A stretch of 64,000 bases of DNA from Branchipolynoe longqiensis. Lineage: Eukaryota; Annelida; Polychaeta; Phyllodocida; Polynoidae. Below the pieces are notes generated by a model. That model was not told the DNA's origin. It saw nothing but the letters and a program-made list of their open reading frames with translations, and ran no database searches. Each line of letters begins with the position of its first letter. Position 1 is the stretch's first letter. The DNA is taken from assembly GCA_030323885.1 (NCBI GenBank), contig CM059198.1:58368917-58432916 (forward strand), given 5' to 3'. Below are positions 7,924 to 56,230 of the stretch, piece by piece. The position numbers were made by a program, and so were the translations under genes.

Positions 7924-8630
7924 GGCGTTATGAGTATGAGACATGCAGGGCTGGATGGGGGTGTAGGGGGTGGGTTGGAGGGGGGAGAAGCTGTATGCTG
8001 GTGGTGTCTTTTTTCTCTTTTTGTTAGCTTTGAGGGGTTTCTTCCACTAGGGTGGTGCTCCCTCCACATCCTGCCACTTCTGGTCTGGCAGTGGTGTTTG
8101 GTTGTGTAGGGTAGGTCGTGCGCATGTCAGGGCACGGTGCACGGTGGGTAATTTTTGTTTATTTTTGTTTTATTGATACAGTATTTATTCTGACCATAGT
8201 GTGTAAGCTCTCGCCAGGGTGCTTGTTTTCAACGCTGGACAGCTGTGACGAATGTTATGGTGTAAGCCTGGGTTCCAGTTCCGGGTTGGTATCCGGGACA
8301 TCCACCAGCATTTATTTAAGTAGTTAGTATCTATGTTAGTTTTTTTTGGTTTTTATGGGGGGTATAACTTCCTATCATATAACTAATATTGTAGCCTAGT
8401 ATGTACATCTAGTGAGAGGGTAATAGGCTTGTGGATGAGTGCCCAGTGCCTTTGTTGCCATCACTCATCGCCTGCCTGGGAAGGTCTAATCGTTACAGCA
8501 GCAGCCCGCTAGGCCTGCTCGGGCTAGACCCTGGCGCTGGTGCAGGCCAGTGCGCCTGTAACAGGCCAGTGCAGGCTGGTACGTATACAACCTGCTTTAT
8601 ACCAGTGACGTCATAGTGTATGAGTAGTAT
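7924..8630. other. no gene seen
   Basis: Unique sequence. Short open frames (for example 8118-8327) have no recognisable domain. Confidence 0.4.
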
Positions 8631-8637
8631 AGTAGTC

Positions 8638-9153
8638 TGCACTGACCCATCAGGCAATGCGCCACATAGACAGGTATGCGAGGGATATGGTGTTGACAAC
8701 AGGGTGAGGACATCAGGGAGCCTAGGTGGTGTAATGGTTAGCACACTGGCTGGGAATGCAAGAGATGTGTGTTCGATTCCCGCTATACGCACACGATTTC
8801 CCATTTTCATCATCCCCATGACACTGGTGCTATGACCAGGATGCTGTCCAAGCTACAATCTGTATGGGTGTTGAACCTACCCTGTGTATGTATATGTAAA
8901 AGCATTGCCAGTATGTATGCAAGTGTAAGCATTAAATGCCCATTTAAAAGACTTACAAGCCAAGAGGATGAGTGTAGTAGTCTGCACAGACCTTACAGGA
9001 AAGTTACCACACAGACAGCTAGCCATGGGCAAGGTGGTGACATCAGGGAGCCTAGTTGGTGTAATTCCTAGGGCACTGGCCCGGAATGAAAGAGGTGTGG
9101 GTTCTATTCCAATTCTCCGCACACTATTTCCCATTGTCATCACCCCCACAAAA
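8638..9153 (+). mobile_element. TRIM with tRNA-like LTRs, complete copy 1
   Basis: 5' LTR 8638-8823, internal region 8824-8972, 3' LTR 8973-9153, flanked by the 4-bp duplication GTAG (8634-8637 and 9154-9157). The LTR tRNA-like segments lie near 8719-8793 and 9047-9122. The termini have decayed (TATAGT for TGTAGT, and a degraded 3' end) and the LTRs differ from each other at many positions. This is therefore the oldest of the five complete copies. Confidence 0.85.
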
Positions 9154-12982: not shown

Positions 12983-13054
12983 CTTGGAGGGATCTTGTCC
13001 TGTTGATTTTATATATCATGTACGATGTGTGATTTTGCCAGGGTTGTATGCTAT

Positions 13055-13555
13055 TGTAGTGGTCTGCACTGACCTCTCAGGCAAGTAACCACATAGACAG
13101 GTAGGCGTGGGGAGTGTGTTGATATCAGGGAGCTTAGGTGGTGTAATGGTTAGCACACTGGCCCGGAATGCAAAGAGATGTGGGTTCGAGTCCCGCTCTA
13201 GGCACAATATTTCCCATTTTCAACACCCCATGACACTGGTGCCGTGACCAGGATCCTGTACAAGCTTTGCGCTGTATGGTTGTTGAACCTACCCTGTGTA
13301 TGTATGTGTTAGTGCATTGCCTGTATGTATGTAATTGTAAGCATTAAAAGACTTACAATTCCAGGGGGACGAGTGTAGTGGTCTGCACTGACCTCTCAGG
13401 CAAGTAACCACATAGACAGGTAGGCGTGGGGAGTGTGTTGATATCAGGGAGCTTAGGTGGTGTAATGGTTAGCACACTGGCCCGGAATGCAAAGAGATGT
13501 GGGTTCGAGTCCCGCTCTCGGCACAATATTTCCCATTTTCAACACCCCCATGACA
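13055..13555 (+). mobile_element. TRIM with tRNA-like LTRs, complete copy 2 (youngest; defines the family)
   Basis: 5' LTR 13055-13235, internal region 13236-13373, 3' LTR 13374-13555, flanked by the exact 4-bp duplication CTAT (13051-13054, 13556-13559). LTRs begin TGTAGTGG and end CATGACA, the TG...CA rule of LTR elements. The internal part starts CTGGTGCCGTGACCAGGATC, which fits a tRNA primer-binding site (TGG start). It ends CAGGGGGACGAG, a purine-rich tract next to the 3' LTR. It has no open frame, so it depends on proteins from another element. The two LTRs differ at only about two positions, suggesting recent insertion. Confidence 0.9.
13128..13203 (+). promoter_or_regulatory. tRNA-like Pol III promoter inside the 5' LTR
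   Basis: A GCCTAGG acceptor strand pairs with TCTAGGC (seven pairs, one G-U). The D arm GTGTAATGGTTAGCAC and the T arm GTGGG-TTCGAGT-CCCGC are intact. Only the anticodon stem is broken. A box TGGTGTAATGG and B box GGTTCGAGTCC match Pol III type-2 consensus. A TTTT terminator lies about 17 nt after the tRNA-like part, still in the LTR. The D arm and GAAT stretch look most like tRNA-Gln, an inference. The 3' LTR holds the same structure near 13447-13522. Confidence 0.8.
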
Positions 13556-13831
13556 CTATTTTAGCATATATTTCTGTGCTCTGTTTTGCATGAAGGAACT
13601 GTAATATTTTACTAACATGTGTTTAACCACGGTATGACCCGCATTAGACGATGTTTACTCTTTGCGCTGGGGGGTCGTTAAACAAACAAACAGACAAACA
13701 TGGATACCTTGTGTTCAGCTAAATGGCACTAATGCTTTCTGATATCAGGAGAATATTAGTTCCAGAATTAACAGACAAACAGCCGTGTAGATGCAATATA
13801 AAGAATCACATCCATGATTGCACATAGTTGT

Positions 13832-14158
13832 TTGTTTGTTGTTGTTTTACGTCCTAGCAACATCTAAGGTCATATCAGGATGGGTACCGACTTGTGACAG
13901 TGCGCACTCATGGCGACTTTATAGTGCTGTCCCACTGGGAAACCAGGCCACCGGCACCATGACCTGATATCCCACTCAGTCACATTATCCTGACACTGAG
14001 CACACCAGTCCTTGCCCTATCCTAATAATGCCGAGCGCCTGGCTAGGAAGCGACAAGTATCAATTTTAAAGTCATTGGTTTGACTCGACCGGGACTCGAA
14101 CCCACGACCCCACGATCTACCAGCACGGGAGACGGACGCTCCAACCCACTCGGCCACC
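13832..14158 (-). mobile_element. SINE-A copy
   Basis: Minus-strand, full length, close to consensus. Flanked by TAGTTGT at 13825-13831 and 14159-14165. Confidence 0.9.
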
Positions 14159-14165
14159 TAGTTGT

Positions 14166-23421: not shown

Positions 23422-23591
23422 TGTAGTGGTCTGCGTTGCCCTCTCAGTCGCGCAAGGAACCCACACAGACAGGTAAGTGTGGACAGGGTGATTGCATCAG
23501 GGAAGGGAGCCTAGGTCGTGTAATGTTTAGCATACCAGGCCCGGAATGGCAGTGTGTAGGTGCAATATTTCCCATTTGCATCATATTCATG

Positions 23592-23594
<3 letters not shown>
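23422..23594 (+). mobile_element. TRIM solo LTR
   Basis: A single LTR from TGTAGTGG to ATGACA with no internal region or second LTR on either side. Its A box is TCGTGTAATG-like and its B-box region is damaged. It lies directly against a (TA)n microsatellite at 23597. A solo LTR is the expected product of recombination between the two LTRs of an element, so this supports the LTR interpretation. The flanks show no clear target duplication. Confidence 0.8.
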
Positions 23595-23596
<2 letters not shown>

Positions 23597-23627
<31 letters not shown>

Positions 23628-47004: not shown

Positions 47005-47505
47005 TGTCATGGGGGTGATGAAAATGGGAAATATTGTGCCTAGAGCGGGACTCGAACCCACATCTCTTTGCATTCCAGGCCAGTGTGCTAACCATTACAC
47101 CACCTAGGCTCCCTGATATCACCACACTACCCACGCCTACCTGTCTATGTGGTTACTTGCCTGAGAGGTCAGTGCAGACTACTACACTCGTCCCCCTGGA
47201 ATTGTAAGTCTTTTAATGCTTACAATTACATACATACAGGCAATGCACTAACACATACATACACAGGGTAGGTTCAACAACCATACAGCGCATAGCTTGT
47301 ACAAGATCCTGGTCACAGCACCAGTGTCATGGGGGTGATGAAAATGGGAAATATTGTGCCTAGAGCGGGACTCAAACCCACATCTCTTTGCATTCCAGGC
47401 CAGGGTGCTAACCATTACACCACCTAGGCTCCCTGATATCACCACACTACCCACGCCTACCTGTCTATGTGGTTATTTGCCTTAGAGGTCAGTGCAGACA
47501 CTACA
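47005..47505 (-). mobile_element. TRIM with tRNA-like LTRs, complete copy 3
   Basis: Plus-strand order: 3' LTR 47005-47186, internal region 47187-47324, 5' LTR 47325-47505. The 4-bp duplication TATT lies at 47001-47004 and 47506-47509. LTRs are highly similar; the tRNA-like part is intact apart from single changes (GACTCAAACCC in one B box). The primer-binding-like site reads CTGGTGCTGTGACCAGGATC on the minus strand. Confidence 0.9.
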
Positions 47506-53486: not shown

Positions 53487-53989
53487 TGTCGTGGGGGTGA
53501 TGAAAATGGGAAATACTGCGCCTAGAGCGGGACTCGAACCCACATCTCTTTGCATTCCAGGCCAGTGTGCTAACCATTACACCACCTAGGCTCCCTGATA
53601 TCAATACACTCCCCACGCCTACCTGTCTATGTGGTTACTTGCCTGAGAGGTCAGTGCAGACCACTACACTCGTCCCCCTGGAATTGTAAGTCTTGTAATG
53701 CTTACAATTACATACACACAGGCAATGCACTAACACATACATACACAGGGTAGGTTCAACAACCATACAGCGCAAAGCTTGTACAGGATCCTGATCACGG
53801 CAACCAGTGTCGTGGGGGTGATGAAAATGGGAAATACTGCGCCTAGAGCGGGACTCGAACCCACATCTCTTTGCATTCCGGGCCAGTGTGCTAACCATTA
53901 CACCACCTAGGCTCCCTGATATCAATACACTCCCCACGCCTACCTGTCTATGTGGTTACTTGCCTGAGAGGTCAGTGCAGACCACTACA
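53487..53989 (-). mobile_element. TRIM with tRNA-like LTRs, complete copy 4
   Basis: Plus-strand order: 3' LTR 53487-53668, internal 53669-53807, 5' LTR 53808-53989. Target duplication ATAG at 53483-53486 and 53990-53993. LTRs near-identical (GCATTCCAGG versus GCATTCCGGG is one difference). B boxes are consensus in both LTRs. Confidence 0.92.
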
Positions 53990-55727: not shown

Positions 55728-56230
55728 TGTCATGGGGGTGATGCAAATGGGAAATACTGCGCCTAGAGCGGGACTCGAACCCACATCTCTTTGCATTCCG
55801 GGCCAGTGTGCTAACCATTACACCACCTAGGCTCCCTGATATCAACACACTCCCCACGCCTACCTGTCTATGTGGTTACTTGCCTGAGAGGTCAGTGCAG
55901 ACCACTACACTCGTCCCCCTGGAATTGTAAGTCTTTTAATACTTACAATTACATACATAAAGGCAATGCACTAACACATACATACACAGGGCAGGTTCAA
56001 CAACCATACAGCGCAAAGCTTGTACAGGATCCTGATCACGGCAACCAGTGTCATGGGGGTGTTGAAAATGGGAAATACTGCGCCTAGAGCGGGACTCGAA
56101 CCCACATCTCTTTGCATTCCGGGCCAGTGTGCTAACCATTACACCACCTAGGCACCCTGATATCAATACACTCCCCACGCCTACCTGTCTATGTGGTTAC
56201 TTGCCTGAGAGGTCAGTGCAGACCACTACA
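55728..56230 (-). mobile_element. TRIM with tRNA-like LTRs, complete copy 5
   Basis: Plus-strand order: 3' LTR 55728-55909, internal 55910-56048, 5' LTR 56049-56230. Target duplication TTAT at 55724-55727 and 56231-56234. LTRs differ at only a few positions (for example GTGATGCAAATG versus GTGTTGAAAATG). Very similar to copy 4, 1.7 kb away in the same orientation. Confidence 0.92.

Follow-up and report, generated by a model that had tools for sequence, protein, structure and literature searches.

A miniature, gene-less LTR element with tRNA-like LTRs and apparent tRNA-His primer fossils in the genome of Branchipolynoe longqiensis

The window studied here, a stretch of 64,000 nucleotides from Branchipolynoe longqiensis, contains several copies of a short element that is best explained, with high probability for the reading as a whole, as a gene-less TRIM of the Helenus type (TRIMp3) that has a degenerate tRNA gene in its LTRs, is primed by tRNA-His, probably depends on a Gypsy-like helper and may be transcribed by RNA polymerase III (Pol III). 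As read from the DNA, the LTR anatomy, the purine-rich tract, the 4-bp duplications at a palindromic site, the tandem derivatives and priming by tRNA-His can be considered demonstrated.

Anatomy and genomic copies

The copy at 13055-13555, as read and measured, is 501 bp long and consists of an LTR of 181 bp, a single C, an interior of 137 bp and an LTR of 182 bp. The two LTRs are near-identical direct repeats, differing by one substitution and one gap; the element ends in TG...CA and has CTAT on either side. This agrees with the original prediction, which had described direct repeats of ~182 bp with TG...CA ends and a 138-bp non-coding interior with a purine-rich end (here, C plus 137 bp ending in AGGGGGACGAG). 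The features of this copy are:

13051..13054, no strand: 5' copy of the target-site duplication, CTAT
13055..13235, + strand: 5' LTR, 181 bp, TG...CA
13132..13205, + strand: tRNA-like unit of the 5' LTR (ARAGORN; Rfam RF00005, 45.3 bits)
13139..13149 and 13183..13193, + strand: A box and B box, respectively, inside the tRNA-like unit of the 5' LTR
13217..13220, + strand: TTTT in the 5' LTR, possible Pol III terminator (found in 32 of 33 5' LTRs)
13237..13254, + strand: primer-binding site (PBS), 18 nt, complement of the host tRNA-His 3' end including CCA
13237..13373, + strand: non-coding interior, 137 bp, starting TGGTGCCGTGACCAGGAT and ending AGGGGGACGAG
13363..13373, + strand: purine-rich tract (PPT) AGGGGGACGAG at the 3' LTR boundary
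13374..13555, + strand: 3' LTR, 182 bp
13451..13524, + strand: tRNA-like unit of the 3' LTR (ARAGORN; Rfam, 39.6 bits)
13536..13539, + strand: TTTT in the 3' LTR, where the genomic RNA is proposed to end (putative role; found in 32 of 33 3' LTRs)
13556..13559, no strand: 3' copy of the target-site duplication, CTAT

A Pfam scan of 8 of the 74 open reading frames of the window (those of at least 110 residues) matched no family. Other copies in the window are:

8628..9153 (approximate), + strand: old family copy, duplication GTAG (ends and duplication by eye)
47005..47505, - strand: copy flanked by TATT (AATA in the orientation of the copy)
53487..53989, - strand: copy flanked by ATAG (CTAT in the orientation of the copy)
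55728..56230, - strand: copy flanked by TTAT (ATAA in the orientation of the copy)

Five complete copies with exact duplications had been reported for the window. All five duplications (GTAG, CTAT, TATT, ATAG and TTAT) are indeed present, but completeness applies to four near-intact copies, the fifth being the old one, which is about 82% identical. The window also has a broken copy at about 40-680 on the minus strand, whose interior holds, by eye, a tRNA-like SINE-like repeat, and a solo-like LTR at about 23422-23600 around which no duplication was seen. In addition, ARAGORN calls an 83-nt tRNA-Gly(ccc) at 14081-14163 on the minus strand, which is absent from the Rfam matches.

In the searched assembly (1.85 Gb in 1,914 contigs, those numbered up to C18 being tens of megabases long), the 27-base PPT/LTR junction occurs in exact form 9,432 times (4,722 forward and 4,710 reverse; control, 0), a count that misses copies with any change in the 27 bases and includes every unit of a tandem array. 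Two scans of viral contigs, a set that possibly leaves the window's own genome outside, gave no match. Copies were sampled in three ways. The first sample, skewed to look-alikes of the window copy, was drawn from 3,180 candidates, of which 40 were scored and 30 fetched; these 30, among which L001 is the window copy, make up the 33 best-match copies together with three others from the window. Their interior is 138 bp long in 23 and 137 bp in 10, and its last 16 bases are identical in all 33. For the second, 20 stretches were hand-picked among the opening 37 rows of the junction list; they account for 25 of these rows, and six tandem groups (12 rows) were skipped, a choice that favours duplications. 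For the third, a search started from the old window copy supplied 12 loci, and all but L051 (the window copy) and L056 were examined, 10 in total.

The spacing of the LTRs is near-constant. In all 20 stretches of the second sample, another LTR is present at a distance of 129 to 151 bp, as a truncated match in two of them, and among 53 LTR pairs, accepted only at 120-160 bp, the spacer (C plus interior) measures 139 bp in 33, 138 bp in 14 and 129-140 bp in 6; spacers of 146 to 151 bp characterize the more diverged group (9 of 10 copies). The mean LTR-LTR distance is 2.2% in 19 second-sample pairs and 1.4% in the 34 remaining pairs. An exact 4-bp duplication flanks 27 of the 33 best-match copies (the other six being L002, L003 and L006, which belong to arrays, and L009, L010 and L024, which have none) and 16 of the 20 second-sample copies, 13 found by script and three by eye (L041, L047 and L049, that of L047 being weak, as it sits in a TA run); in this sample L031 and L040 have a duplication with one mismatch, and L034 and L045 have none. 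For the diverged copies the figure is 5 of 10, the other five being three inside arrays and two with one mismatch.

By script, the pooled 53 LTR pairs yield 40 exact duplications, and the flanks of these 40 sites form a palindrome, ATR-NTAN-YAT, around the duplicated four bases. The dyad symmetry was reached by none of 5,000 column permutations, and by one of 5,000 when 9 TA-repeat sites were taken out and 31 remained. A dyad-symmetric target site is the trace left by a retroviral-type integrase. Thus, the palindrome points to integrase insertion and not to SINE insertion, and the genomic copies demonstrate an LTR-type replication and an integrase-like insertion.

It could be argued that these repeats are paired tRNA-derived SINEs, that is, dimers moved by a LINE, as tRNA finders call each LTR a tRNA. 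We rejected this reading, to which we give practically no credence, on the basis of the duplications, the near-constant spacing and the palindromic target; the PBS, the purine tract and the LTR-plus-primer fossils described below also speak against it, and the sampled copies lack the single unit, the variable duplication and the A-rich or simple tail of tRNA SINEs. The original prediction had already read the element as a miniature LTR element rather than a SINE dimer, and had proposed to check duplications and spacing in genome copies; the sampled loci support it on both counts, and they are unlike the variable duplications, A-rich tails or random spacing that it had named as evidence to the contrary.

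The junction list also shows arrays with a spacing of about 321 bp, such as five junctions at C1:5574621-5575929. L006 and the mutually overlapping L002 and L003 are pieces of arrays of the form LTR-interior-LTR-interior-LTR, and one fetched stretch (L061:142-3338) has ten LTRs, with 5 of the 9 steps being 332 bp. L049:87-1872 is an array of six LTRs and five interiors with an exact TATT duplication around the whole, so that the array either was already formed when it inserted or expanded afterwards. These arrays, with six and ten LTRs, could be taken to suggest a tandem tRNA-like gene family retained by the host for its RNA. That possibility is extremely improbable, since the copies are dispersed with target duplications, the anticodon arm is broken, and the L049 array is itself bounded by a duplication.

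The tRNA-His primer and a candidate helper

The PBS TGGTGCCGTGACCAGGAT is complementary over 18 nt to the 3' end of the host tRNA-His with its CCA: the tRNA-His(GTG) genes L080 and L081 terminate in ...ATCCTGGTCACGGCA, which with CCA added is the complement of the PBS. A pattern made of the LTR end and an extended PBS hit the genome three times (L082, L083 and L084), and in each case a single LTR runs straight into a tRNA-His complement longer than the element's own interior contains, followed by other sequence. The tRNA-His copy is 27 nt long in L082, 36 nt in L083 and about 69 nt in L084 (46 exact, then one mismatch). These loci, judged by their structure, are evidently fossils of tRNA-His primer use, and the simplest account of them would be plus-strand synthesis that copied into the still-attached primer. 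L084 is preceded by GTAG and followed by GTAT, nearly a duplication; around L082 and L083 no duplication was found, so their right ends may have been altered. A chance resemblance of an old interior to tRNA-His over the 69 nt of L084 is not credible; for the 27 nt of L082, such an old interior is possible.

The 3' end of tRNA-His occurs at 39 sites genome-wide, and the 8 inspected comprise the two genes L080 and L081, three loci of this element (L077, which is L082, together with L083 and L084), two loci beside a Gypsy-like LTR (L076 and L079) and one, of 25 nt, beside another LTR-like end (L078). With such LTR-plus-tRNA copies, sequence is enough to identify the primer, which is a useful extra of this case. 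The commonest form of the element's PBS, TGGTTGCCGTGATCAGG (exact in 29 of 53), differs from the host tRNA-His by an extra T and a C>T change, which tRNA-His does not explain. The extra T is found among L004-L030 and also in three more diverged copies, and the variant is puzzling because primer copying should restore the PBS. No autonomous family with the extra-T PBS was evident among 15 sites with another continuation, which at 13 of them reads as that of the element itself with one base deleted.

The single LTR of L084 (L084:1325-1506) differs from one real sister LTR at 16 positions, 14 of which are A>G, in a stretch with 44 A; there is no A>G in its tRNA-derived tail. This cluster was spotted by eye and, in a measurement of 135 copies, then proved to be the most extreme, the next-highest having 5 A>G. 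Its binomial probability is ~4e-9 for one copy (background share 18%), before allowing for the extreme of 135. At least two of the sites (GCACAAT region) vary among other copies too. The pattern fits an RNA that may have been edited from A to I before reverse transcription, given the general behaviour of ADAR.

With one base left free, the same 18-nt PBS followed by a different continuation occurs at 226 sites, the continuation being mostly TAGTA among the 100 listed. Nine such sites were fetched, and eight have a common LTR end, GGTTAAAC, ahead of the PBS, L069 having another. Two long stretches were fetched, and gag and integrase pieces were found in L065 only, which has the same 18-nt PBS. 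L065 matches the zinc knuckle family PF00098 at 21.9 bits, over the cut-off of 20.8, and its integrase fragment matches PF00665 at 24.4 bits, under the cut-off of 32.6. By eye, together with the zinc knuckle and the sub-threshold integrase match, the family of L065 appears to be Gypsy-like. The other long stretch, L064, does not resemble an LTR element beyond its PBS, by eye, and contains a masked stretch and a non-LTR-looking open reading frame. No 3' LTR of L065 was found within about 6 kb of its end, and by eye no purine tract lies directly upstream of the Gypsy-like LTR start at ten loci (11 rows). The element gave no match at 1e-5 to L076, which carries the Gypsy-like LTR, and its interior is, by eye, unlike that of L065 beyond the PBS.

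The Gypsy-like family likewise leaves LTR-plus-tRNA-His fossils. L076:744-2331 has the Gypsy-like LTR, the full 75-nt tRNA-His complement with CCA and then the LTR inverted, the two arms being 97.9% alike over 756 bp, and L079 has the Gypsy-like LTR with 37 nt of tRNA-His, nested in an old copy of the element. L079 had been considered as a template switch between Gypsy and the element, and this was discarded on re-reading it as the nested arrangement. L053 was also discarded as a longer partner sharing the element's LTR: the foreign sequence ahead of its purine tract resembles, by eye, the SINE-like repeat of the broken window copy. Beside a diverged copy, L059:2071-3505 contains pieces reminiscent, by eye, of the RNase H and integrase of Gypsy. 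We infer that Gag, reverse transcriptase and integrase are supplied by the Gypsy-like family sharing the PBS; having a primer in common is in itself no proof of help in trans.

The tRNA-like unit and its possible transcription

ARAGORN called a tRNA in all 8 LTRs of the four young window copies, and Rfam RF00005 reached its gathering score in 9 places of the window, with at most 52.9 bits; annotators should beware, as both programs call the LTRs of these young copies tRNA genes. In the two Rfam alignments displayed, the acceptor, D and T arms are paired, as had been predicted, and the anticodon stem has two broken pairs, so the unit is tRNA-like and not a tRNA. The consensus A and B boxes and the TTTT previously described in the LTRs are found in 63, 65 and 64 of 66 LTR rows, respectively (33 elements, with one LTR common to L002 and L003). 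Since these rows come from best-match and mostly young copies, the counts reflect inheritance from working parents and not measured selection. Neither AATAAA/ATTAAA nor TATAAA/TATATA occurs in any of the 66 LTR rows, and AATAAA/ATTAAA is present in 4 of the 33 interiors. The lack of TTTT between the two terminators was rejected as evidence for Pol III, as 1,202 to 1,377 of 2,000 shuffles (60 to 69%) are likewise TTTT-free. The LTR carries a predicted Pol III promoter, which Pol III may use.

We could speculate that transcription by Pol III begins in the 5' LTR, at its tRNA-like unit, and that it sometimes leaks past the first TTTT (13217-13220) and stops at the second (13536-13539). The resulting RNA would be about 408 nt long, with an 89-nt repeat (R) at both ends, while a stop at the first TTTT would give a by-product of about 89 nt. 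The Pol III promoter and terminator would thus take over from the Pol II start and the poly(A) signal. This complete scheme, in which the tRNA-like unit and TTTT form the R region, the usual start site, R and poly(A) signal give way to a Pol III promoter/terminator pair, and the RNA is exposed to double-strand RNA editing, is tentative, and we would put it somewhat short of an even chance.

The same element might instead make its genomic RNA with Pol II, the tRNA-like unit being a passenger from an old SINE, an insulator or a transcription-factor site. Indeed, the TTTT of the 5' LTR should halt many Pol III transcripts, and it is established that autonomous LTR elements use Pol II. However, the LTR rows have no TATA or poly(A) motif, although Pol II LTRs can lack both. 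In addition, decay has reached the anticodon stem but spared the A and B boxes and the outer arms, a pattern to be expected if a promoter is preserved for the sake of its boxes. We regard the Pol II alternative as rather unlikely.

Comparison with known elements

Placed by its features and by published description, the element belongs to a kind that is already known, Helenus/TRIMp3; the family is very large and its primer fossils are unusually clear. Helenus elements are TRIMs with tRNA-derived sequence in their LTRs, reported from six animal phyla with hosts that include fish, wasps and bivalves, the latter in Pteriomorphia; they are 311-1263 bp long, in animals have 4-bp duplications, and their Pol III activity is stated to be unvalidated by the paper that describes them (Kojima 2024, PMC10886601). 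The B. longqiensis element is likewise short and gene-less, with A and B boxes in each LTR, a PBS and a PPT, and 4-bp duplications (PMC10886601). It also shares its PBS with an apparently autonomous Gypsy family, here a candidate helper called from the zinc knuckle, the sub-threshold integrase and inspection by eye. For Helenus, tRNA-His is among the primers inferred in bivalves and vertebrates, Gypsy is the helper inferred from PBS similarity, and tandem arrays are known from zebrafish LTR-11_DR (PMC10886601). The original prediction of an animal counterpart of the plant TRIM Cassandra was right about tRNA-type A and B boxes in the LTRs, but such elements had been published in 2024.

Cassandra similarly has a Pol III-type promoter in each LTR (predicted here) and tandem arrays (PMC10853983, PMC7215508), and differs, in the available text of its descriptions, in its 5S rRNA-derived promoter, its plant hosts and its methionine PBS (PMC10853983). 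Ajax is another TRIM of animals whose LTR has a small-RNA promoter (predicted here), and it differs in being 5S-derived, with 5-bp duplications, a tRNA-Leu primer and two nemertean hosts (Kojima 2024, PMC10886601). The bivalve TRIM biv-TRIM also forms solo repeats and tandem arrays; according to the accessible part of its description, it has repeats of 202-218 bp, an interior of 77-80 bp, a PPT that is mostly GGGGAGA and no clear PBS (Satovic 2019, PMC6934838). Our element has repeats of 181-182 bp, an interior of 137-138 bp, the PPT AGGGGGACGAG and a clear tRNA-His PBS, and on repeat length, interior length and PPT, as far as that part of the description extends (PMC6934838), we rejected its membership in biv-TRIM. 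No further work on tRNA-bearing TRIMs was found among the literature matches listed (Repbase, supplements and most subscription journals lying outside), and five sequence words of the LTR matched no paper in the literature text.

The 9,432 exact junctions found here compare with 2,618 interiors in the largest animal Helenus family counted, the counting methods being different (PMC10886601). Copied-primer fossils are not mentioned for Helenus in the accessible part of that paper (PMC10886601), and what is new here is the leftover copies that reveal which cellular tRNA primed the copying. Moreover, since this family has over 9,000 exact junctions and includes young LTR pairs, a possible Pol III origin of Helenus genomic RNA becomes directly testable.
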